A stretch of 64,000 bases of DNA from Kutzneria kofuensis (lineage in GTDB: Bacteria > Actinomycetota > Actinomycetes > Mycobacteriales > Pseudonocardiaceae): the NCBI RefSeq assembly GCF_014203355.1, contig NZ_JACHIR010000001.1, positions 5,210,038 to 5,274,037 of the forward strand, read 5' to 3'. A program made the translations under genes and the position numbers. The notes below the pieces were generated by a model that was not told the origin of the DNA, did no database searches, and saw only the letters and a list, made by a program, of their open reading frames with translations. Numbering within the stretch: position 1 is the stretch's first letter; every line of letters begins with the position of its first letter. Positions 41,000 to 51,030 of this stretch are shown here, piece after piece.

Positions 41000-41011
41000 C
41001 AGCAGCGCCGG

Positions 41012-41881
41012 TTACTTCTTGCCCAGCAGCGTGCCGACGTCACCCAGCAACCCTCCCACCACAGCGTCGAGCACGTTCGGCGGCGTGGTCGTCGTGGTCG
41101 TGGGCGGCGGCGTGCTGGTTGTCGGTGTGCCGGGCGGAGGGGCGGACGTTGTGGTGGTCGGGGGTGGGGTTGCGGTGGCGGCGGTCGCCGGGACGGCGGG
41201 AATGCTGGTCACACCGCCGGAGTAGGTGGTGATCCACTGGAACACCTCGGCCAGGTAGGCGCCGTCGTGGTTGTAGCTGAGGACGGCGTTCACGAGGTCG
41301 CCGTTCAGCGACAGGTCACGGCCGTCGGCGCAGAGGTAGTCGGCGGCGGAAGCGGTGGCGTCCCAGACGTTCTGGGGATCGGCGGCGCCGTCGTGGTTCT
41401 CGTCGACGCCCCACTTGGCCCACGTGGAGGGCAGGAACTGCATGGGGCCGACGGCGTGGTCGCCGTCGGAGAGCTCGGGGCCGAAGATGGGCTCGGTGAC
41501 GGTGCCGCGGTCGTCGACCTGGCCGCCGCGGGCGTGGTTGGACTCGACCTTGCCGATGCCGGCGAGCACCTGCCACCGCAGGTGACACGAGGGGACGCGG
41601 CCGGCGGCGTGCTGGTAGGCGGCCAGCAGCACGGCGGGGATGCGGTTGTCGGTGACGGTCGCGACGGTCTTGAACGGGACGACGTGATCCGGCCGGACCA
41701 CCTGCACGTCGGGCCGCTTGTGCGGGGCGGCGGGGGAACCGCCGGGCGGCACAACGTGATCGGGCACGGTCGAAGTGGCCGGCTGGGCTTCGACCACGGC
41801 GGGCGGGGTCGTGCTGGCCACGCAGGTGACGGCCAGCACTCCGGCGAGCGCGACCAGACCGGTCGAGGCACGGCGGGACAA
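41012..41881 (-). CDS. Secreted lytic transglycosylase
   Basis: 289-residue exported protein with a soluble lytic transglycosylase domain (about 85-205): catalytic Glu in GKVESNH, then GPMQFLPSTWAKWG and a calcium-like DENHDGAADP. These enzymes cleave peptidoglycan glycan chains. N-terminal signal helix about 8-25; C-terminal tail is Thr/Pro-rich (about 225-270), then a short hydrophobic end. TTG 41881 has GGAG 6 nt upstream; TTG 41893 lacks one. It lies 76 bp after two tiny exported-peptide genes on the same strand and may be the last gene of the operon starting at 47.5 kb. Confidence 0.82.
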   Translation of the reverse strand: MSRRASTGLVALAGVLAVTCVASTTPPAVVEAQPATSTVPDHVVPPGGSPAAPHKRPDVQVVRPDHVVPFKTVATVTDNRIPAVLLAAYQHAAGRVPSCHLRWQVLAGIGKVESNHARGGQVDDRGTVTEPIFGPELSDGDHAVGPMQFLPSTWAKWGVDENHDGAADPQNVWDATASAADYLCADGRDLSLNGDLVNAVLSYNHDGAYLAEVFQWITTYSGGVTSIPAVPATAATATPPPTTTTSAPPPGTPTTSTPPPTTTTTTPPNVLDAVVGGLLGDVGTLLGKK

Positions 41882-41957
41882 GGGGGACTCCAATCAGGGG
41901 AGGAGAGGACCGTGGCCCGGCGGGACGACGGGCCGGGCCACGGTGGGTCGACACAAC

Positions 41958-42158
41958 TCAGAACAGGCGGCCGACCGCCTGCGAGACGGACTGCAGGGCG
42001 CCGAGCACCGGCACGCCCAGCGGGTCGAACGTCCAGATGTTGTTGAGGGAGCTGGTGTCGGGCTTGTCCACCACGGTCACGCCGTCGGCGAGGGCGGGGG
42101 AGGCGGCGCCGATGAGGGCGGCGGTCACCAGGGTGGTGGTGACGAGGGTCCTGCGCAT
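41958..42158 (-). CDS. Tiny exported peptide 2
   Basis: 66 residues: signal peptide about 1-24 (ending ALA), mature part of about 42 residues ending VPVLGALQSVSQAVGRLF, an amphipathic helix. No Cys. ATG 42158 has AAGGA 8 nt upstream. It begins 17 bp after the preceding tiny gene and has similar design, so the two probably share a role at the cell surface. No family recognised. Confidence 0.65.
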   Translation of the reverse strand: MRRTLVTTTLVTAALIGAASPALADGVTVVDKPDTSSLNNIWTFDPLGVPVLGALQSVSQAVGRLF

Positions 42159-42175
42159 GACGGATTCCTTTCGGT

Positions 42176-42373
42176 TCAGCCGCTGATGAGCTTCAGCAGG
42201 CCGTCGACGGGGGCGAGGGCGGTGGTCGGCAGCGGCACGGTGGGGCCGAGCAGGGAACCGACGTCCACGCCGGGCAGGGCCCAGACGGGGAGGGTGTCGG
42301 CGGCGGCCGAGCCGGCGCCGGCGGCGAGCAGGGCGGCGGTCAGCAGACCGACGGCAACAGCCTTGGACTTCAT
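42176..42373 (-). CDS. Tiny exported peptide 1
   Basis: 65 residues: signal peptide about 1-25 (ending AAA), mature part of about 40 residues (DTLPVWALPGVDVGSLLGP...) rich in Pro, Leu and Val and without Cys. ATG 42373 has AAGGAA 4-5 nt upstream and lies 10 bp after the YeeE/YedE stop, so it is co-transcribed with that permease. Chaplin-like length but not the chaplin motif. Function unknown. Confidence 0.68.
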   Translation of the reverse strand: MKSKAVAVGLLTAALLAAGAGSAAADTLPVWALPGVDVGSLLGPTVPLPTTALAPVDGLLKLISG

Positions 42374-42383
42374 GGAATTCCTT

Positions 42384-43616
42384 TCAGCAGACGGAATCGG
42401 TGGGCTTGGGATTGCCGAGACCGAACAGCGGGCGCAGCGGAACGCCGATGTAGGTGCCGGCGATGGCGGCGACGCCCCACAGCCAGCCGTGCAGGCTGAA
42501 GGAGGCGACGCCGGAGAAGTAGGCGCCGATGTTGCAGCCGCCGGCCATGCGGGCGCCGAAACCCATGAGCACGCCGCCGATGACGGCGCCGACGGCCATC
42601 TTCCACGGCACGGCGCGGTGCAGCACGAAGGCGCCGGCCAGCGCGGAGGCGATCAGGGCCCCGAGCATGATGCCGAAGTCCATCACCGAGACCCGGTCGG
42701 CCAGGACCGAGGCGTGCAGGGCGGCCGCGTTCTTCGGGACCGTCCAATAGGGAGTGCTGGAGATGTCGATCCCTATCCAACCAAGGAACTTCGCGCCCCA
42801 CAAGGCGAAGGCGGCGGTGATTCCCCATGGGCTGCCGGAGACGAACAGGGTCACGGCGTTCAGCACGGCGAGCAGGATCGCGCCCACCCACAGCGGCCAC
42901 GCGCCGCGCAGCACCCGCGTCCAGCCCCGGGCCACGGGGGCCGGCTCGATCGGCGGCGGGTTGCGACGCCGTTGCAGCAGAAGGGATCCGCCGGCGATGG
43001 CACCGATGATCAGGAACGAGAACAGGACGCCGCCGCCGTACCCGAGCGGGGTGTTGGCCAGCGACACGGTCGGGCCGAGCGACTGGAGGTAGGTGATCCA
43101 GTTGGCGGCGAAGGCGCTGCCGATCGAGCCGAGGACGAAACCGCCCAGGGTGTACAGGATGGCGGTCTGTCCGCTGCCGACCGCGAACAGCGTGCCGGAC
43201 GCGCAGGAACCGCCGATCTGCATGCCGATGCCGAAGATGAACGCGCCGAGCGCCACCCCGATGCTGGCCGGTAACACCATTGCCTTGGGGGCGCCGGACA
43301 GACCGATGCCGGACCGCAGGATCACCCCGAACAGCAGCACCGCCACGGCCAGCATCAGCATGTGCGCCCGGATCGCCGCGCCCTGGCCGACCGCGACGAT
43401 CTGCCGCCACGCCGAGGTGAACCCGAAGCGGGAGTGGAACAACACCAGGCCGAGCGCCAGCCCGACCACGTACAGCAGGGCCAGCTTCCAGCCCGCCGCG
43501 TGATAGACGGCGAAGCCGAGAACGGCGGCGAGCGCCGTGCCGACGACGATCACGCCGGATCTGGCCGACGGCGCCTCGACCGCCACCACGGGCAGTCTTT
43601 CGTTGGCGACAGACAT
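42384..43616 (-). CDS. YeeE/YedE-family sulfur-compound permease
   Basis: 410-residue membrane protein with two YeeE/YedE (DUF395) repeats, each carrying the conserved Cys motif: GGSCASGT in the first half and GGCNIGAY in the second. Family members import thiosulfate or other sulfane sulfur, passing it along these cysteines. ATG 43616 has AGGAGG 4 nt upstream. It is 91 bp downstream of the DUF6239-like gene and 10 bp upstream of a tiny exported peptide gene. Confidence 0.88.
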   Translation of the reverse strand: MSVANERLPVVAVEAPSARSGVIVVGTALAAVLGFAVYHAAGWKLALLYVVGLALGLVLFHSRFGFTSAWRQIVAVGQGAAIRAHMLMLAVAVLLFGVILRSGIGLSGAPKAMVLPASIGVALGAFIFGIGMQIGGSCASGTLFAVGSGQTAILYTLGGFVLGSIGSAFAANWITYLQSLGPTVSLANTPLGYGGGVLFSFLIIGAIAGGSLLLQRRRNPPPIEPAPVARGWTRVLRGAWPLWVGAILLAVLNAVTLFVSGSPWGITAAFALWGAKFLGWIGIDISSTPYWTVPKNAAALHASVLADRVSVMDFGIMLGALIASALAGAFVLHRAVPWKMAVGAVIGGVLMGFGARMAGGCNIGAYFSGVASFSLHGWLWGVAAIAGTYIGVPLRPLFGLGNPKPTDSVC

Positions 43617-43707
43617 CTTCCCTCCTAACGACTCAGGGCAGCGGAGATCGGGCGAAGGCCCAGGACGGGGCCGCTGATGGGGGCGGTGGCGCCGGGTGGG
43701 CGGCGGC

Positions 43708-45357
43708 TCACGACAGCGGCCCGGAGATGGGGACGATGGTGCCGTTGGGGACCCACTGGCCGGGGTAGGCCATCTCCATCCCGTCCATGGTGTTGTCCAT
43801 GGGCATGGCGTCGACCTGGGCCGACGCGTAGAGCCGCACCGACGGATCGGGGTGCTGGCCCTGGGCGGCGAGCCACTGGTCGAGGCCGCCGAGGGAGCCG
43901 GTCTCGCCGGGGAAGGCGTTGGCGAGGGCGACGGTGTAGGCCAGGGTCTGGGGATCACGGGGATCGAAGCGGAGCGGGACCGCCGAGCTGACGACGGACT
44001 TCAGCAGGGGCGCGGTGAGCAGCCACGGGGCGAGGTAGATGCCGTCGACGAAGGTGGGCTTGCGGGTCTGCTCCGCGGCGACCTCGGACAGCTCGGCGGC
44101 GGCGCCGGACCAGCCGGCGACGACGACCAGGGCGCTGTTGGGTTGCTCGGTGTCGGACACCGGGATCCCGGCCCGGCGAACGACTTCCGCGGCGGCCTTG
44201 GCGCGCGGGGAGTCGTCGCCGACGATGGTGATCGCCGGGATCTTCCGGCCCGCCAGGTAGTCCACAAGCTTGTGGACAGCCTCGGCATCGCCTGTGGACA
44301 AGGCGTCGCTGGGGCACGACGTCAACGCAACCCGACTGCCGCCGATGAGACCGCCCAACGCCGCGTTCGCGCACTCCGCGTCCACGGTGCGACCGGCCGG
44401 CCCGGAGCCGGTGTCGACGGGCAGCGTGGATTCCTTGCCGTCACGGGAGATCCGCACCGTGCTGCGCCCCGGCGGAAGGTCGATCTCCGCCCACGCACCG
44501 TTCATTCCCGGCCTGGCAACGGCCTTGACTCCGTTGACCGTCGCCGCGTCCGGCAGGTGGACGAGGTTGCGGCCGGGGCGTTGCGGAGCGACCAGAACCG
44601 GCACGCCGGCGGCCTCGCCGAGCAGCGGCACGCCCGGGGTCGGCAGGTCCGCCGGGCGAGGGATCGCGCCCAGCGCCGCCCACGCGAGGTAGGCGACCAC
44701 CACCGGCAGCGCGCCGACGGGGTAGAGCCGCCTGGTCGGCAAGGTGATCGTCAACCCCGTGACGACGATCGGCAGCAGCGCCACCACGAGCAGCGCCAGG
44801 CCGAAGCCGGTGTCGTAGAGGCGGCGGTCGAAGCCGACACCGGACACCGCTATCTGCAGCACGCCGGCCAGTGCCAGGACGATGGCCAACGTCAGGGCCA
44901 CGGGGCGAGGGCGAAGCCGGCCCGTTGACGAAGGCGCGAGCAGCGTCAGCCCGAGCCAGACGACGACGCCGACGGTGTAGCCGGTGTCGGCGAGGAACTC
45001 GATCCCCATGTGGCTCAGGGAGATCTCGGAGATCAGCACCACCAGCAGGCCGAAGCCGACGCACGCGGCCGGCGTGCGCCAGCGCAGCGTGGCCGGCACC
45101 GCGACGGCGAGCAGCAGCTGCCCGATCGCGAACACCGGGTTGGTGTCCAGCCACAGCAAGGAGATCAGGTCGGCGGCGGCCGTAACGGCGGCCGCGATCC
45201 ACGCGATGACAACGGTGTTACGGCGCACCGAGGCCACGGTGGGTCGCAACAGGCCGATGCCGGCGACGGTCGCACTCGCCACCAGGAGCACGATCCTGAG
45301 CAGCAGCACGGCCGGAGGGACACCGGTGACGGACGTGTCCATGCCCATGTCGGTCAT
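43708..45357 (-). CDS. DUF6239-like membrane protein with Met-rich tails
   Basis: 549 residues. The N-terminal half has about eight hydrophobic helices (to about residue 235) with ISEISLSHMGIEFLADTGY reminiscent of CopD/CtaG-type copper proteins. The C-terminal half (about 245-549) is a soluble domain. Met-rich ends stand out: MNMTDMGMD at the start and MPMDNTMDGMEM near the C-terminus, patterns often used to bind Cu(I). I place it in DUF6239 with moderate confidence. ATG 45357 is chosen although its ribosome site is weak; TTG 45363 is possible. It lies 69 bp after the SBP56-like gene and before the sulfur permease. Confidence 0.7.
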   Translation of the reverse strand: MTDMGMDTSVTGVPPAVLLLRIVLLVASATVAGIGLLRPTVASVRRNTVVIAWIAAAVTAAADLISLLWLDTNPVFAIGQLLLAVAVPATLRWRTPAACVGFGLLVVLISEISLSHMGIEFLADTGYTVGVVVWLGLTLLAPSSTGRLRPRPVALTLAIVLALAGVLQIAVSGVGFDRRLYDTGFGLALLVVALLPIVVTGLTITLPTRRLYPVGALPVVVAYLAWAALGAIPRPADLPTPGVPLLGEAAGVPVLVAPQRPGRNLVHLPDAATVNGVKAVARPGMNGAWAEIDLPPGRSTVRISRDGKESTLPVDTGSGPAGRTVDAECANAALGGLIGGSRVALTSCPSDALSTGDAEAVHKLVDYLAGRKIPAITIVGDDSPRAKAAAEVVRRAGIPVSDTEQPNSALVVVAGWSGAAAELSEVAAEQTRKPTFVDGIYLAPWLLTAPLLKSVVSSAVPLRFDPRDPQTLAYTVALANAFPGETGSLGGLDQWLAAQGQHPDPSVRLYASAQVDAMPMDNTMDGMEMAYPGQWVPNGTIVPISGPLS

Positions 45358-45391
45358 GTTCAAAGGGAATCCCGCTTCACCTAGGACGGGC

Positions 45392-45414
45392 GGCGCCGCG
45401 GTCGGGGCGGCGCC
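45392..45414 (-). terminator. Hairpin between SBP56-like and DUF6239-like genes
   Basis: GGCGCCGC (45392-45399) pairs with GCGGCGCC (45407-45414) across a 7-nt loop, 12 bp after the SBP56-like stop. No U-tract; probably partial termination or message protection inside an operon. Confidence 0.5.
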
Positions 45415-45426
45415 ACCCGCTATCCG

Positions 45427-47253
45427 CTACTTCACGTCGGCGTCGGCCACGACGAACAGCTCGGAGTGCGGCTTGGCGTTGCCGAAGTCGCCGTGCGGCC
45501 AGGACTTCCGGTTGAAGTTGATGCCGACCTGCCCCGTGTACTCGTCACGGAACGAGGTGTCGACGGTCAGCTTGCCGTCCGGTCCGATGTTCACCATGTT
45601 GACCTTGTGGTCGCCGTCGATGCCGGACCGCGCCACGAAGTAGTCCGACACCGCGACCCGGGCCGGGTTGTCGGTCTCGTGGTAGTAGCCGTCCGAGCCG
45701 ACGGTGAAGTTGTCGTACGTGCCCCAGTGCGGGCCCTGTCCCGGCGTGCTCGGGTTGATCGCCGCCGCGCCGACCAGCGTCGGGCAGTCCGCGCCGCCGC
45801 CGTTCTGCGCCTTGGCGACCGTGTCGATGTTGCAGGTGTAGCCGGCGCCGTCGGCGAGCAGCTTGCGAATGTCCAATGTGTACACGCCGCCGATGGTGCC
45901 TGGGTCGTCCGCGGACAGCGTGCCCTTGGGACGGCCGATCACCGCGTGGTACAGGTAGTGGTCGTCCGGGCTGACCTGCACCCAACCGCCGTTGGTGCCG
46001 CCGCCGTTGGCCTCGGTCGCGTTCGGGTTGAACGCCTTCGTGGCGGTGCCGTCGTCGAACACCTCACGCCAGTGCGGCTCGGCCGCGGTGATGTCCGGCG
46101 TGTAGAAGATCGCGCCGCCCTGCATGGTCTGCGCGAACGCACCCTTGTGCCCCGGCTGGTTGGTCACGGTGTTCTCCATGACCGCCCGGCTCTCCGCGTG
46201 CAGCGGGTCGGCCGGGTTGGCCCGCGGGCCGTCCGGCAGGTAGCTGACCGCACGCAGCTTCGGGTTGTTGCGGTCGGAGATGTCCCAGGTCCGGATGGTC
46301 GGCCGGCGTAGGTACGGCGACGGCTGCTTGACCGGGTCGAGAATGATGTTGCGGGGTTCCGCGTAGTCGCTGGTGATCAGCGTGTTCAGGTCCTCGCGGG
46401 CCTGGATGCCGTGCGGGTTCGCGCAGGTGGCGCTGCCCAGCTGCGGCAGGTTGTCGCACAGCTTCGGGTCGTCGCCCTGCGGGGTGGCCGCCGGGGACTG
46501 GGACAGCACCTTGCCGTTCTGGTCGAAGTGGATCACCTCGCCCGGGCTGCCGGCGAAGCCGTTGCCGATCACCGACGAGCCGTCGCCGTACACGTACGGG
46601 CCGGGCACCACCGGTCCGCCCATGTAGGTGCCGTACGCGGTGCCGTCCTTGAGCGTCCAGTACGCGTCCGGCACCGAGCCGCCGAGCGTCTGGCTGGGCA
46701 GGCTGATGCCCTTGAGCCTGAGCTCGGGCAGCTTGCTCACGTCGAACGCGTAGGTGGCCGCCGCGAACAGCGCGCCCGCGTAGATGGTGTCGCCCTTGTG
46801 CCACACGTACTGCATGTGGTGCGGCTCGTTCTCCACCAGCGGGCCGACGGTCGCGGTGTTCACGACCTTGCCGTAGTCCGGCGAGCCCTTGGTGGCGTCG
46901 ATGACCGCGAGGAAGTCCGGCCCCGGCAGGGCGTTGCGCACCTTGGTCAGGCCGCCGCCGAGCGTGCCCGGCAGGTTCTTGATGTCCGGCACGACGGTGT
47001 CGGCGATGTTCTCGTCGCCGGCCCAGACCAGCAGCCATTCCTTGCGGGTGTTGGACCTCGCGGCGTACTGCGGCACCAGGTGGTTGGTGACGGAGTAGTC
47101 CTTGCCGTCCGCGCCCGCGACGTGCTGGGTGGTGACCTGCACGTCCGCGTAGGCGGATGTGCCCGCGGCCGGGAAGAACGTGGCGGCCGCGGCGACTGCT
47201 ACGGCCGCGCCGGCCACCCTCGCCCTGCGCCGGCCCGGCGGTTTGACAGACAT
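45427..47253 (-). CDS. Secreted SBP56 / methanethiol-oxidase-like protein
   Basis: 608-residue exported beta-propeller-type protein. Signal peptide about 1-38 (GRRRARVAG then a hydrophobic core, ending AYA). It resembles the selenium-binding protein SBP56 family, which includes bacterial methanethiol oxidase: VENEPHHMQYVWHKGD, CANPHGIQAREDLNTLITSD, IRTWDISDRNNPKL, HWREVFDDG. Methanethiol oxidase is periplasmic, copper-dependent and yields formaldehyde, H2S and H2O2; this activity is inferred here, not shown. ATG 47253 has GGGAG 5 nt upstream. First structural gene after a leader peptide and hairpins, followed by DUF6239-like and YeeE/YedE genes, a context that supports sulfur metabolism. Confidence 0.68.
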   Translation of the reverse strand: MSVKPPGRRRARVAGAAVAVAAAATFFPAAGTSAYADVQVTTQHVAGADGKDYSVTNHLVPQYAARSNTRKEWLLVWAGDENIADTVVPDIKNLPGTLGGGLTKVRNALPGPDFLAVIDATKGSPDYGKVVNTATVGPLVENEPHHMQYVWHKGDTIYAGALFAAATYAFDVSKLPELRLKGISLPSQTLGGSVPDAYWTLKDGTAYGTYMGGPVVPGPYVYGDGSSVIGNGFAGSPGEVIHFDQNGKVLSQSPAATPQGDDPKLCDNLPQLGSATCANPHGIQAREDLNTLITSDYAEPRNIILDPVKQPSPYLRRPTIRTWDISDRNNPKLRAVSYLPDGPRANPADPLHAESRAVMENTVTNQPGHKGAFAQTMQGGAIFYTPDITAAEPHWREVFDDGTATKAFNPNATEANGGGTNGGWVQVSPDDHYLYHAVIGRPKGTLSADDPGTIGGVYTLDIRKLLADGAGYTCNIDTVAKAQNGGGADCPTLVGAAAINPSTPGQGPHWGTYDNFTVGSDGYYHETDNPARVAVSDYFVARSGIDGDHKVNMVNIGPDGKLTVDTSFRDEYTGQVGINFNRKSWPHGDFGNAKPHSELFVVADADVK

Positions 47254-47303
47254 GTGTGCTCCCGATTCGTCAAAGGAGAAAATGCGCGCGACTGACCGAC
47301 CGG

Positions 47304-47363
47304 ACACCGATGTCGGTGTTCGGGCAAGCGTTTTCACCGGCTCCCGAACATGTCGGTCACCGA
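47304..47363 (-). promoter_or_regulatory. Cluster of inverted repeats in the operon leader
   Basis: Between the leader-peptide stop and the SBP56-like gene: ACACCGA-TG-TCGGTGT (47304-47319), GTTCGGG-N18-CCCGAAC (47318-47349) and TCGGT-C-ACCGA (47353-47363). The ACCGACAT/ATCGGT elements occur twice and could pair in alternative ways, as expected for an attenuator or ribosome-site sequestering switch. Confidence 0.55.
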
Positions 47364-47379
47364 TTGATATGAGATGGAC

Positions 47380-47460
47380 TCAGCGGCCCAGACAGAGGTC
47401 GCTCGCCTGCCGCTGCAGGTCGACATGCCGGCGAATGGTCAGAGAGACCCCGCGCATCAT
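47380..47460 (-). CDS. Cys-type leader peptide (sulfur attenuation)
   Basis: 26 codons: MMRGVSLTIRRHVDLQRQAS then DLCLGR and stop. The RRHVDL...C pattern is that of the short putative leader peptides found upstream of sulfur-assimilation genes in actinomycetes, where translation through the Cys codon is thought to sense cysteine supply. ATG 47460 coincides with the predicted transcription start (-10 CATCAT at 47468-47473), so it would be a leaderless mRNA; ATG 47457 is the second in-frame Met. The inverted-repeat cluster and the SBP56-like gene follow. Confidence 0.72.
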   Translation of the reverse strand: MMRGVSLTIRRHVDLQRQASDLCLGR

Positions 47461-47467
47461 GCGCAAG

Positions 47468-47496
47468 ATGATGGTGCGTTCGGAGTAACTTGTCAA
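47468..47496 (-). promoter_or_regulatory. Promoter of the sulfur-type operon
   Basis: TTGACA (47491-47496), 17-nt spacer, CATCAT (47468-47473, 4 of 6 consensus). Transcription would begin at or next to the leader-peptide ATG at 47460. The remaining stretch to 47616 shows no further gene. Confidence 0.65.
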
Positions 47497-47616
47497 TGAG
47501 TTCCCCAAGTGCGGGAAATGACCCCAATTGGGTGACGACTATTGACGTGTCGGTGTCAGACGGAAATTTCGATGCGTTTTGTTAATGGATCGAGTCGGGT
47601 ACGGAAACGGAACAAC

Positions 47617-48072
47617 TCACAGGTTGTGTCGGATCCGATCGCGAAGTGGCTTGCGCCGCAAGGCTTCCGTGGCCGCGATGACCACTTCGGACAGTGGGTA
47701 CGGCAGCTCCGCGTCGAGCTCGCGGCCGGCCGCCTCGGCGGCCTGCCAGGCCTGCTCCAGCTTCGGCAGCAGCGCGCGGGTGCGCGGCGTGAGGTCGACG
47801 ATCCGTTGTCGCGCATCGGTTCCCGGCGACAGCGAGACCAGTCCCTGTCGGTCCATCTGGGTGATCGTCTGGCTCGCGGCGGAGTGAGTCACCTCGACCG
47901 CCTTGGCCAGATCCCGAATCGTACTCGGGCCGAGCGTCGCCAGCGTTCGCAGGAACGGGGCGTAGCGCGGGCGGAAGCCGGTCAGTCCCAGCTCCTCCTC
48001 GACGATCGCCACGTCGCCGTCCAGCAGTTCGATCAGGTGGCGAAGTCGCGTGCCCAGTCCCGGTCCCGTCAC
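47617..48072 (-). CDS. MarR-family regulator
   Basis: 151-residue winged-helix repressor: STIRDLAKAVEVTHSAASQTITQMDRQGLV is the DNA-binding helix pair and wing, with dimerisation helices at both ends. GTG 48072 lies 6 nt after TATATT (leaderless). It is divergent from the prolyl iminopeptidase gene with a clear palindrome between them, so it probably represses both. Confidence 0.87.
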   Translation of the reverse strand: MTGPGLGTRLRHLIELLDGDVAIVEEELGLTGFRPRYAPFLRTLATLGPSTIRDLAKAVEVTHSAASQTITQMDRQGLVSLSPGTDARQRIVDLTPRTRALLPKLEQAWQAAEAAGRELDAELPYPLSEVVIAATEALRRKPLRDRIRHNL

Positions 48073-48083
48073 CCGTTCAATAT

Positions 48084-48109
48084 AACAGTGCTAATGTAAC
48101 AGCACTGTT
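48084..48109. promoter_or_regulatory. MarR operator
   Basis: AACAGTGCT (48084-48092) and AGCACTGTT (48101-48109) form a perfect 9-bp-arm palindrome with an 8-bp centre, touching the MarR gene -10 box and preceding the iminopeptidase gene by 22 bp. Confidence 0.75.
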
Positions 48110-48131
48110 GTATCTGCGACCGGGGGGACCC

Positions 48132-49142
48132 ATGCGCGACCGCTACCCGGAGATCGAGCCCTACGACCATGGCCTGCTGGATGTCGGCGACGGCAACCTC
48201 GTCTACTGGGAGACCTGCGGGAACCCGGACGGCAAGCCGGTGCTGTCCGTGCACGGCGGGCCCGGCAGCGGCTGCGGCCCGGGCTCCCGCCGGTACTTCG
48301 ATCCGCAGCGGTACCGGATCGTGCTGTTCGACCAGCGCAACTGCGGCCGCAGCCGGCCCGACGCAGGCGACCCGGCCGTGGACCTGTCGGCCAACACCAC
48401 CGACCACCTGATCGCCGACATGGAGCTGCTGCGCGAGCACCTCGGCATCGACCGCTGGATGCTGTTCGGCGGCTCCTGGGGCTGCGTGCTCAGCCTCGTC
48501 TACGCCGAGCGGCACCCGGAGCGGGTGACCGAGCTGGTGCAGATGGGCCTGGCCACCGGCCGCAAGGATGACGTCGAACTGCTCACCCGCGGCCTCGGCG
48601 GCATCTTCCCGCAGGCGTGGCAGAAGTTCGTCGAGCTGCTGCCCGAGGACGAGCGCGACAACATCCCCGCCGGCTACTCGCGGCTGCTCAACGACCCCGA
48701 CCCGGCGGTGCGCAAGCGTGCCATGCGGGCATGGTGCGACTGGGAGGACGCGATGCTGCCCTACGCCCCGGCGCGCGCCATGTACGAGGAGGACGAGCGG
48801 TTCGCCTACGCCTTCACCCGGCTCGTCACGCACTACTGGAGCCAGGACCACTTCATCGGCGACAACGAGGTGCTGGCCAACGCGCACCGGCTCGCCGGCA
48901 TCCCGACCGTTCTCGTGCAGGGGGTGCTCGACCTCGGCAACCTGGTCGGCACGCCGTGGCTGCTCGCCCAGGCGCTGCCGCACGCCGAGCTGGTGATGGT
49001 GCCAGACGAGGGGCACAGCCTCAGCTCACCGGGCATGCGGCACGCCCTCGTCACGGCCACCGACAAGTTCGCCGAAAAAAATTCTGGCAGGGTGTCGAGC
49101 GAGCCGACCTCCGTTCGACGCGTAGGTGAGCAGACACCCTGA
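48132..49142 (+). CDS. pip: Prolyl iminopeptidase
   Basis: 336-residue alpha/beta-hydrolase that removes N-terminal proline. HGGPGSG oxyanion motif, nucleophile S115 in GGSWGC, Asp in QGVLDLGN and His in DEGHS. ATG 48132 has GGGGGG 4 nt upstream. The usual family end is near VTATDKFA; here the frame runs on for about 20 odd residues after an A7 run (49075-49081) through the promoter of the next gene, so the true C-terminus deserves checking. Controlled by the divergent MarR protein, probably. Confidence 0.88.
   Translation: MRDRYPEIEPYDHGLLDVGDGNLVYWETCGNPDGKPVLSVHGGPGSGCGPGSRRYFDPQRYRIVLFDQRNCGRSRPDAGDPAVDLSANTTDHLIADMELLREHLGIDRWMLFGGSWGCVLSLVYAERHPERVTELVQMGLATGRKDDVELLTRGLGGIFPQAWQKFVELLPEDERDNIPAGYSRLLNDPDPAVRKRAMRAWCDWEDAMLPYAPARAMYEEDERFAYAFTRLVTHYWSQDHFIGDNEVLANAHRLAGIPTVLVQGVLDLGNLVGTPWLLAQALPHAELVMVPDEGHSLSSPGMRHALVTATDKFAEKNSGRVSSEPTSVRRVGEQTP
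49093..49119 (+). promoter_or_regulatory. ECF42-type promoter of the DGPF gene
   Basis: TGTCGA (49093-49098), 17-nt spacer, CGAC (49116-49119), 39 nt before the DGPF gene. This matches the promoter motif described for ECF42 sigma factors (TGTCGA at -35, CGA at -10), and an ECF42-type sigma gene follows. It lies within the 3' end of pip. Confidence 0.65.
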
Positions 49143-49157
49143 CATGAGGAGACAGCG

Positions 49158-49586
49158 ATGCGGTTCATGGTGATCGTGAAGGCCAGCGAGGCGAGCGAGG
49201 CCGGCGTGCTGCCCACCCCCGAGGAGTTCGAGGAGATGGGCAAGTTCAACGAGGAGCTGGTCGACGCCGGCGTGCTGCTGGCCGCCGACGGCCTGCAGTC
49301 CAGCGCCAAGGGCGCCCGGATCTACTTCGACGGCGACAAGAAGACCGTGGTCGACGGCCCGTTCACCGAGACCAAGGAGCTGATCGCCGGGTACTGGCTG
49401 GTCGAGATGAAGTCGCTGGAGGAGTGCGTCGAGCGGTTCAAGCGTTGCCCGTGCCCGGCGCCCGGCCAGCAGACGAACATCGAGATCCGGCAGGTCTTCG
49501 AGGCCGACGACTTCGGCGAGAACTTCACGCCCGAACGGCGCGAGGCCGTGGAGCGGATGCGGGCCAAGGTCGCCGAGAACAGTTGA
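49158..49586 (+). CDS. DGPF-domain (YciI-like) protein
   Basis: 142-residue YciI-related protein with the signature VVDGPFTETKELIAGYW. Its function is unknown, but genes of this type are the standard partners and targets of ECF42 sigma factors. ATG 49158 has GGAGA upstream. The ECF42-like promoter just before it and the sigma gene after it form the conserved module. Confidence 0.88.
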   Translation: MRFMVIVKASEASEAGVLPTPEEFEEMGKFNEELVDAGVLLAADGLQSSAKGARIYFDGDKKTVVDGPFTETKELIAGYWLVEMKSLEECVERFKRCPCPAPGQQTNIEIRQVFEADDFGENFTPERREAVERMRAKVAENS

Positions 49587-49634
49587 CCGTGGTCGACGCG
49601 CCGACCCGGGACGACGCCGACGGCCACTGAACGC

Positions 49635-49731
49635 GGGTTCGCGCCGGTCTCTGGAGCCGCGGCCCGGGAAAATCGCGTCTGTTCAGCGATTTTCCCGGGC
49701 AAGGCGAAGAGACCGGCTTACGAGCGAACCC
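49635..49731. other. Three-tier nested inverted repeat
   Basis: Inner arms 49663-49676/49686-49699 (14 bp perfect, CCCGGGAAAATCGC), middle arms 49644-49651/49709-49716 (CCGGTCTC/GAGACCGG) and outer arms 49635-49642/49724-49731 (GGGTTCGC/GCGAACCC) are concentric. This 97-bp structure between the DGPF and sigma genes could be a terminator with extended stem or a structured RNA. Confidence 0.6.
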
Positions 49732-49767
49732 TCCCCGCGCGGCACGCGCGGCGTAGATACTGTGGCG

Positions 49768-51030
49768 GTGGCCACCGACACCCACCGCGCGATCGAGGCC
49801 GTCTGGCGGATCGAGTCGCCGCGCCTGATCGCCGGCCTGACCCGGCTGATCCGCGACGTCGGCACGGCCGAGGAGCTGGCGCAGGACGCGCTGGTGGCGG
49901 CCCTGGAGCAGTGGCCGAGCGAGGGCGTGCCGAAGAATCCGGGCGCCTGGCTGATGACCACCGCGAAGCGGCGGGCCATCGACCAGATCCGGCGCAACGA
50001 GACGTTCAAACGCAAGGTCGAGGAGGTCGGCCGCGATCTTGAGGAGTCGACGCCGGACATCGGCGAGATGGTCGCGTCGGACGACGGCATCGGCGACGAC
50101 CTGCTGCGGCTGGTGTTCGTCGCCTGCCACCCGGTGCTGTCCACGGAGGCCCGGGCCGCGCTGACGCTGCGGCTGCTCGGCGGCCTGAGCACCGACGAGA
50201 TCGCCCGCGCGTTCCTGGTGCCGGAGCCGACCATGGCGCAGCGGATCGTGCGCGCGAAGAAGACCCTGGCCAAGGCCAACGTTCCGTTCGAGGTGCCGCA
50301 GGGCGAGGAGTTGGCGGCGCGGCTCTCCTCCGTGCTGGAGGTCGTCTACCTGATCTTCAACGAGGGCTACTCGGCGACCGCCGGCGACGACTGGATGCGG
50401 CCGGCGCTGTGTGAGGACGCGTTGCGGCTGGGGCGGATCCTCGCCCGGCTGGCCCCGCGCGAGCCCGAGGTGCACGGCCTGGTGGCGCTGATGGAGATCC
50501 AGGCCTCCCGCGCCGCCGCCCGCACCGGCCCTCGCGGTGAGCCCATCCTGCTCGCCGACCAGAACCGGGCCCGCTGGGACCAGTTGCTGATCCGCCGCGG
50601 GCTTGCCGCTCTGGAGCGGGCCGAAGCGTTGATCGACGGCAAGCCCGGCCCCTACGTGCTGCAGGCTTCCATCGCCGCCTGCCACGCCCGGGCCCGGCGG
50701 TTCGAGGACACCGACTGGGAGCGCATCGCCTGGCTGTACGAACACCTCGCCGAGACCACGTCGTCGCCGGTCGTGGAGCTGAACCGGGCCGTCGCGCTGT
50801 CGATGGCCTTCGGCCCCGAGACCGGGTTGGCGCTGCTGGACCAGCTGATGGAGTTCCCGTCCATGCAGAACTACCACCTGCTGCCCAGCGTGCGCGGCGA
50901 CTTCCTGATGAAGCTCGGCCGCCTGGCCGAGGCACGGTCGGAGTTCGAACGGGCCGCCTCGCTCACCCGGAACGAACGGGAGCGGACGCTGCTGCTGGAC
51001 CGCGCCGCCGCCTGCACCGAACCGGCCTGA
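49768..51030 (+). CDS. ECF42-type RNA polymerase sigma factor
   Basis: 420-residue ECF sigma factor with a long C-terminal extension. Sigma region 2 about 10-75 (AEELAQDALVAALEQWP, NPGAWLMTTAKRRAIDQIRR), region 4 about 125-180 (LRLLGGLSTDEIARAFLVPEPTMAQRIVRAKK), then a DUF6596/TPR-like helical domain (about 190-420). No anti-sigma gene is near; the C-terminal domain is thought to control activity in this group. GTG 49768 fits a leaderless start after GATACT (49756-49761); GTG 49762 is possible. Confidence 0.9.
   Translation: MATDTHRAIEAVWRIESPRLIAGLTRLIRDVGTAEELAQDALVAALEQWPSEGVPKNPGAWLMTTAKRRAIDQIRRNETFKRKVEEVGRDLEESTPDIGEMVASDDGIGDDLLRLVFVACHPVLSTEARAALTLRLLGGLSTDEIARAFLVPEPTMAQRIVRAKKTLAKANVPFEVPQGEELAARLSSVLEVVYLIFNEGYSATAGDDWMRPALCEDALRLGRILARLAPREPEVHGLVALMEIQASRAAARTGPRGEPILLADQNRARWDQLLIRRGLAALERAEALIDGKPGPYVLQASIAACHARARRFEDTDWERIAWLYEHLAETTSSPVVELNRAVALSMAFGPETGLALLDQLMEFPSMQNYHLLPSVRGDFLMKLGRLAEARSEFERAASLTRNERERTLLLDRAAACTEPA

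Follow-up and report, generated by a model that had tools for sequence, protein, structure and literature searches.

A putative cysteine-type leader peptide ahead of an SBP56-fold gene set in Kutzneria kofuensis, a probable cysteine-gated sulfur-scavenging operon

What is a 26-codon open reading frame (ORF) doing between a predicted promoter and the gene of a secreted-type protein, and what might the genes behind it do together? This question is raised by a locus of the soil actinobacterium Kutzneria kofuensis (family Pseudonocardiaceae) that lies within 64,000 nucleotides of contig NZ_JACHIR010000001.1 (positions 5,210,038 to 5,274,037), a stretch hereafter called the window and part of a 10.4-Mb genome. 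In a protein search, the closest named relatives were Kutzneria proteins, three at 94-95% identity and a fourth at 84%. Our answer, which we regard as probable with a good share of doubt, is that the locus is a cysteine-gated sulfur-scavenging operon; its short ORF belongs, by sequence comparison, to a known actinobacterial leader family found ahead of sulfur genes. The features at its head, in window coordinates, are the following.

47468 to 47496, minus strand: promoter with a -35 element TTGACA (47496-47491), a 17-nt spacer and a -10 element CATCAT (47473-47468); predicted transcription start (+1) at 47460.
47380 to 47460, minus strand: leaderless leader peptide ORF of 26 codons, MMRGVSLTIRRHVDLQRQASDLCLGR, identified by NF042934, by conservation and by the proportions of nonsynonymous and synonymous differences (pN/pS).
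47254 to 47379, minus strand: gap of 126 nt between leader and gene, with a GGGAG Shine-Dalgarno site; no terminator-like site and folding at chance level.
45427 to 47253, minus strand: SBP56-fold protein of 608 amino acids, a distant SBP56 relative with a signal-peptide-like N-terminus.

The original prediction placed the start point of a promoter on the ATG of this ORF and, as a prediction, this is borne out. The TTGACA-17-CATCAT site is followed by 7 nt and then by the leader ATG at 47460, and it is the sole promoter-like site in 801 nt on both strands, where shuffled sequences give 0.2. The ORF ends with its stop at 47380 and carries its motif Cys as the codon TGT at 47394-47392. Compared with the NCBIfam model NF042934 ("putative leader peptide"), it barely passes, with 27.1 bits for a cut-off of 27, and the same stretch scores 24.9, under the cut-off, when the whole genome is scanned. 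The arrangement that this family describes, a short leaderless ORF ahead of a larger gene, is found here, judging from the predicted start and the conserved register of the promoter. A Pfam scan of six leader peptides gave no match. A DNA pattern for RRHVDL was also tried as a leader finder and was unspecific, with 19 matches in the genome for 11 with a reversed control pattern; 3 of the 19 matched frames were leader-like, one being the leader at 47460, and the protein model was used for the leader search instead.

Relatives of the SBP56-like gene occur in 48 of 150 Pseudonocardiaceae genomes, and a leader-like ORF of the same motif lies upstream in 24 of the 30 loci read within the family. 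The named comparison set comprises 80 loci retained out of 135 relatives found. Searched as a pattern, the leader motif is present upstream in 59 of these 80 loci and in none of the 80 reverse complements; a position-specific scoring matrix (PSSM) finds it in 66, namely the 56 loci supplying its 35 distinct training cores and 10 further loci scoring at least 26.7, the lowest positive value being 26.7 and the control maximum 0.6. Outside the 1.1-kb stretch ahead of the gene, a scan of both strands over the whole set of 80 loci turned up three places with scores above 14, of which two are leader-like. Loci L145 and L148 have an extra leader-like stretch, of the RRHVDLGRVWSAGC type, about 3.3 kb upstream on the minus strand and apart from the SBP56-like gene.

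Aligned on the leader ATG, the upstream regions form 65 rows, the window plus 64 loci (two of the 66 leader loci had no ATG in range), with six double-ATG rows, including that of the window, anchored on the second ATG, 3 nt off. The conserved positions, which are few, include T-36, G-34, A-33, C-32, A-12 and T-8. Because the -35/-10 register is kept across the 59 distinct upstream sequences, the leaderless start is predicted to be conserved. Across 49 distinct cores of 12 codons, the peptide sequence is maintained and synonymous sites change, with pN 0.139, pS 0.59 and dN/dS 0.13. A quick tree of the 80 relatives and two divergent homologues places leader-bearing genes on either side of the drawn midpoint root, so that the association looks old, with losses. 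A count of leader gains and losses on this tree was uninformative (2 changes for 2.0 in shuffles).

The strongest codon choice in the leader is at the motif Cys. In 65 leaders this codon is TGT 61 times, never TGC, TGA twice, TAA once and CCC once, and 52 of the 56 distinct leaders have TGT, whereas 253 of the 263 Cys codons in the downstream SBP56-like genes are TGC and the further Cys codons within the same leaders comprise 11 TGC and 5 TGT. Measured against background over the 49 distinct cores, the choice amounts to 4.65 bits, the next position, a Ser AGC, reaching 1.88; the rows are related by descent and the figure is not a count of events. Across the class, loci were obtained for 30 matches, of which 29 could be read, and the last Cys is TGT in all 29, compared with 28 TGC and 5 TGT for the earlier Cys codons. 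Five of six other leaders in the genome of K. kofuensis have TGT and one (L179) has TGC, which means that the UGU rule is not absolute.

A pairing of UGU with the start region was considered as the reason for this choice and rejected, with 3 of 49 loci in its favor and a median p of 0.82; TGT pairs better in 19 loci, TGC in 21, and the two are equal in 8. This test covered 49 of 64 stretches, four without a motif Cys codon being left out besides those with uncertain or distant starts. Bacteria generally read both Cys codons with a single GCA tRNA. The simplest reading of the UGU invariance would be a sensor codon read by wobble. The rule was not met in the literature searched, a scope that does not take in Canestrari et al. 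2020.

Leaders of this kind also precede other genes of the same genome. The NF042934 scan of the genome gave three matches over the cut-off and four more at E values up to 0.0091, the leader at 47460 being among the four; of the six others, L178-L180 are over the cut-off and L182-L184 under it. Two of these six precede genes that pass their models, a cysteine dioxygenase (PF05995, 51.7 for 23) and an SfnG dimethylsulfone monooxygenase (406.9 for 382.95). Three more precede genes that resemble sulfur genes at scores under the cut-off, namely a sulfurtransferase-like gene about 0.5 kb away (3-mercaptopyruvate sulfurtransferase model, 117.6 for 250), a sulfite/nitrite reductase scanned as a fragment (best model ferredoxin-nitrite reductase, 161.4 for 594), and an SsuC-like permease (239.8 for 347). 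A sulfur-limitation regulon may be readable from the six other leaders. Class-wide, NF042934 at E ≤ 0.001 matches in 50 of 60 genomes and in none of 14 control genomes; at E ≤ 10, ten of the 14 controls match as well, none over the cut-off. With the NF042934 score, the kept promoter register, the 66 leaders among 80 relatives and these further leaders, the proposal of a leaderless Cys-type leader linked to sulfur genes has good support.

Comparable leaders are known from mycobacteria, where one report describes cysteine-rich leaderless ORFs ahead of cysA2 and nirA (PMC4633059). Two other papers, both citing Canestrari 2020, attribute to such ORFs a control of cysteine genes through attenuation (PMC9094748, PMC13236596). 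As far as these mycobacterial cysteine-responsive leaders (Canestrari et al. 2020; NF042934, NF042933, NF042936) are portrayed there, the Kutzneria leader shares with them a short leaderless ORF, one or more Cys codons and a position ahead of sulfur genes, but it has a single motif Cys and not a poly-Cys tract, and it precedes an SBP56-like gene.

How would such a leader sense cysteine? One alternative is that it is a nascent-chain arrest peptide, in which the conserved stretch R-x-H-V-D-L-x4-S-x-L acts within the exit tunnel to stall the ribosome, and this stall, not simple codon starvation, conveys the cysteine signal or a related one. The nearly fixed non-Cys residues, with synonymous change left free (pN and pS as above), and the stop codon exactly at the Cys position of three leaders are consistent with it, whereas the strongest codon choices, UGU and to a lesser degree AGC, fit codon reading; we consider this alternative conceivable but doubtful. 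A broader proposal, which we put forward tentatively and with a similar measure of doubt, combines both elements: throughout the class, the actinobacterial sulfur leaders could work as a device in which a single invariant UGU, at the end of a conserved nascent peptide, senses cysteine, the peptide providing an arrest context and UGU being the sensor codon read by wobble. Its targets could include an undescribed secreted cassette, in which an SBP56-fold protein whose active site has been rebuilt would work beside a CopD-like partner to release sulfur extracellularly.

The 608-residue protein behind the leader has an N-terminus that, judged by eye, resembles a signal peptide. The SBP56 likeness stated in the original prediction stands as remote homology but not by the Pfam profile, against which the protein scores 16.5 bits (PF05694, gathering score 34). 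Nevertheless, PF05694 does reach E ≤ 1 with 31 of the 33 family members, the best value being 1.6e-6. A profile search of the PDB by sequence returned 2ece alone, at E 0.95. An AlphaFold2 model built from 33 rows reached a pLDDT of 87.2 and a pTM of 0.88, and an earlier model from 16 close rows (pLDDT 54) was set aside for it. In a Foldseek search with this predicted model, the top PDB match is again 2ece, the SBP56 of Sulfolobus, at E 6e-17 (probability 1.00, TM 0.51/0.67, identity 15%), followed by the next at 1.5e-9; nitrous oxide reductases are also among the matches. Aligned by hhalign to nine true SBP56 proteins, the family gives Prob 92.9 and E 3.8e-7, the latter for one comparison. A genome scan for SBP56 found none over the cut-off. 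Judging from sequence and predicted structure, the 608-residue protein is genuinely, if remotely, related to SBP56. In 394 genomes of the class, an SBP56-like match occurs in 15, two of which are the genome of K. kofuensis and one of the same family. Diverged SBP56-like copies are present in other actinobacterial families, up to three per genome and mostly without a detectable leader.

The protein resembles SBP56, SELENBP1 and MtoX (PF05694, NF052453) in its beta-propeller fold, with 2ece as best PDB match, and in an aligned His-His pair: H145-H146 align with the adjacent His pair (DELHH) of the SBP56/MtoX copper site and are His in 33 of 33 rows. It differs in its length (608 residues for a model of 453 positions), in falling under both curated cut-offs, in its CopD-like partner, and in the second copper motif, HxxH (PHTxHC), which aligns with D196-A-Y-W199 and is therefore absent. 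All 33 rows have Asp at position 196; at position 199, 25 of them have Trp and none has His. The Glu of SEW aligns with D296. The copper residues of MtoX are given as His89, His90, His140 and His412 (PMC5739008), and the activity of SELENBP1 is reported to drop strongly when H73, H74, H137, H140, D189 or E252 is mutated (PMC10362175). Since HxxH is absent, metal binding is not assured. The residues invariant over the 33 rows, H145, H146, D196, H281, D296, H509, H549 and H596, could form a rebuilt metal site.

The original prediction pointed to an exported route of methanethiol or related C1-sulfur oxidation controlled by cysteine status. As an MtoX-type enzyme, the exported protein would convert methanethiol into sulfide, formaldehyde and peroxide on the outer side of the membrane, the sulfur then being taken up. 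The SBP56 fold, the conserved H145-H146 pair and the signal-peptide-like N-terminus agree with this, MtoX being likewise exported (PMC5739008), and a dimethylsulfone monooxygenase stands under a similar leader in the same genome. However, the protein scores 21.7 bits against the MtoX equivalog model NF052453, for a cut-off of 650, and the HxxH motif, mutation of which strongly lowers SELENBP1 activity (PMC10362175), is replaced by D196-A-Y-W199. Moreover, mtoX operons are reported to carry SCO1/SenC and MauG partner genes (PMC5739008); neither was found among the four window neighbors scanned, the neighbors of the relatives not having been scanned for these families. On the model scores and the HxxH motif, we reject orthology with methanethiol oxidase. 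An MtoX-type enzyme appears improbable to us, and methanethiol is no more than one substrate candidate.

Downstream of the SBP56-like gene, four more genes follow on the same strand.

43708 to 45357, minus strand: CopD-like membrane protein with a conserved C-terminal domain that has two invariant Cys.
42384 to 43616, minus strand: sulfur-compound importer of the Sulf_transp (YeeE/YedE) type, ATG at 43616, with TAGGAGGGAAG upstream of the ATG.
42176 to 42373, minus strand: small secreted-type protein of 65 amino acids, likely operon gene 4; its relatives cluster in 32 of 80 loci.
41958 to 42158, minus strand: small secreted-type protein of 66 amino acids, likely operon gene 5; its relatives cluster in 50 of 80 loci.

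All five genes, from 47253 down to 41958, run in the same direction in the window and would be transcribed together. The 66-residue protein has no clear Pfam family. The gene directly after the SBP56-like gene, which went unmentioned in the original prediction, has 551 codons if counted from TTG 45363, with an ATG at 45357, and a gene of this type follows the SBP56-like gene in 75 of the 80 loci. Its product is a membrane protein in which C331 and C350 are invariant (10 members) and whose ends are, in several members, rich in Met and His. No Pfam family matches it; a search for CopD (PF05425) in the 10 members gave nothing at E ≤ 5, and no PDB relative was found at E ≤ 5 either. By hhalign, it nevertheless aligns with three CopC-CopD-type proteins (Prob 90.1, E 1.6e-6) over 165 columns that cover the membrane helices and the stretch after them; control comparisons gave Prob 0.1 (partner with SBP56 and partner with importer) and 0.2 (SBP56-like with CopD). 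The stretch after the membrane part presumably resembles YtkA/CopC-type domains. A relation of the partner to CopC-CopD-type copper proteins is possible over these 165 aligned columns; the lack of a Pfam CopD match and the extra C-terminal domain set it apart from them.

This C-terminal domain is common to the partner genes of distant paralogues. It is encoded near 11 of 23 propeller loci of other families (flanks up to 1.5 kb). Of the 20 larger regions read within the family, 17 encode it too, one copy being 8 kb away. Six large Streptomyces plasmid records carry a propeller gene. On one Streptomyces plasmid, the propeller gene shares four bases with a relative of the C-terminal part of the partner (36% identity over 400 columns), both plasmid genes being annotated as hypothetical protein.

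The importer matches Sulf_transp (PF04143) over its full length with 217 bits, for a gathering score of 27, which confirms the YeeE/YedE permease that had been noted downstream. In comparison with TsuA-type importers, it stays under all the TsuA and YedE/FdhT cut-offs tested (90.6 for 400 and 43.8 for 645 with TsuA; 144.3 for 350). Over the 80 loci, the importer is downstream on the same strand in 37, on the opposite strand in 8, and not found in 35; a leader is present in 36 of the 37, 1 of the 8 and 29 of the 35, respectively. Seven of the eight loci with an importer on the opposite strand (L109, L114, L123, L127, L128, L149, L151, L152) are without a leader and the eighth is without the motif Cys; no leader was found ahead of the importer in these loci.

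The CopD-like partner and its Met/His-rich ends raise another explanation, that the propeller is not a sulfur-acquisition enzyme but a metal- or selenium-binding protein that handles copper together with its partner, and that it stands under a sulfur leader since thiol status and copper toxicity are linked. In distant relatives and on the Streptomyces plasmid, the short flanks read around the propeller-partner pair showed no importer and no leader. Against this, a sulfur importer and a sulfur-type leader are associated with the pair in Pseudonocardiaceae, and we find a copper-handling role unlikely.

We return to the cysteine-gated sulfur-scavenging operon, in which cysteine status would control the five genes. 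When Cys-tRNA is plentiful, the ribosome would clear the leader and downstream expression would remain low; when cysteine is short, the ribosome would pause at the UGU codon and the operon would be expressed. The secreted propeller, probably loaded with metal with the help of the CopD-like partner, might then attack, on the outer side of the membrane, a small compound that contains sulfur. Import of the sulfur set free, for use in cysteine synthesis, might fall to the YeeE/YedE protein; these last two steps are the more speculative ones.

Several observations weigh against this reading. On the RNA side, no terminator-like site was found after the leader and no strong conserved hairpin above chance. 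The hairpins announced in the original prediction do not emerge from the minimum free energies (MFE): the leader plus gap has a z-score of -1.71, with 9 of 200 shuffles folding as well, and the gap alone one of -0.43, with 64 of 200. Rfam gave no match in the leader region and a single one in 41000-50000, at 44935-44996, with E 0.29 and under the gathering score. A consensus fold of four near-identical Kutzneria leaders, with two-sided change in 1 of 65 pairs, is uninformative; that of 16 Amycolatopsis leaders shows two-sided change in 12 of 58 pairs, scattered, and has the leader end paired to the Shine-Dalgarno site. A general role of the leader end as an anti-Shine-Dalgarno was rejected, since 2 of 53 loci reach p ≤ 0.05 and the mean pairing energy is -8.9 for -9.3 in shuffles (53 of 64 distinct leader-to-start stretches, 11 having been dropped for uncertain or distant start codons). 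Compared with their synonymous recodings, leader RNAs fold more poorly, being better in 0 of 25 loci at p ≤ 0.05 and worse in 8 of 25. An RNA route from a stalled ribosome to higher downstream expression was not found by folding, terminator or pairing tests.

The distribution of the elements adds further points of the same kind. The leader was not detected in 14 of the 80 relatives; for one of these only 349 nt of upstream sequence were at hand, and for another 587 nt. Of six stretches ahead of in-family paralogues, none scores for a leader. Among the 23 loci of other families, the region ahead of the gene scores clearly in one (30.2) and weakly in another (9.3), for a control maximum of 6.2. 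The motif Cys is replaced by a stop codon in three leaders and by a Pro codon in a fourth (L085, L126, L132, L149), and the leader of L126 has no Cys anywhere. One of the six other leaders of the K. kofuensis genome lies 0.7 kb from the gene that it precedes, which encodes a general amino-acid permease. Some of the 35 loci in which the importer was not found end at contig ends, and the co-occurrence of leader and importer is confounded by descent. Lastly, the propeller lacks the HxxH copper motif.

A set of SBP56-fold protein, CopD-like partner and importer under such a leader was not met in the open-licence literature, searched by titles and the starts of abstracts. With this locus, the likely sulfur regulon of a large actinobacterial group gains an SBP56-fold protein that has no name yet, together with its membrane partner. 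Its promoter, leader and partner set make the function of the operon directly testable, and if the wobble-read codon is the sensor, a synonymous change of UGU to UGC should blunt the response to cysteine.

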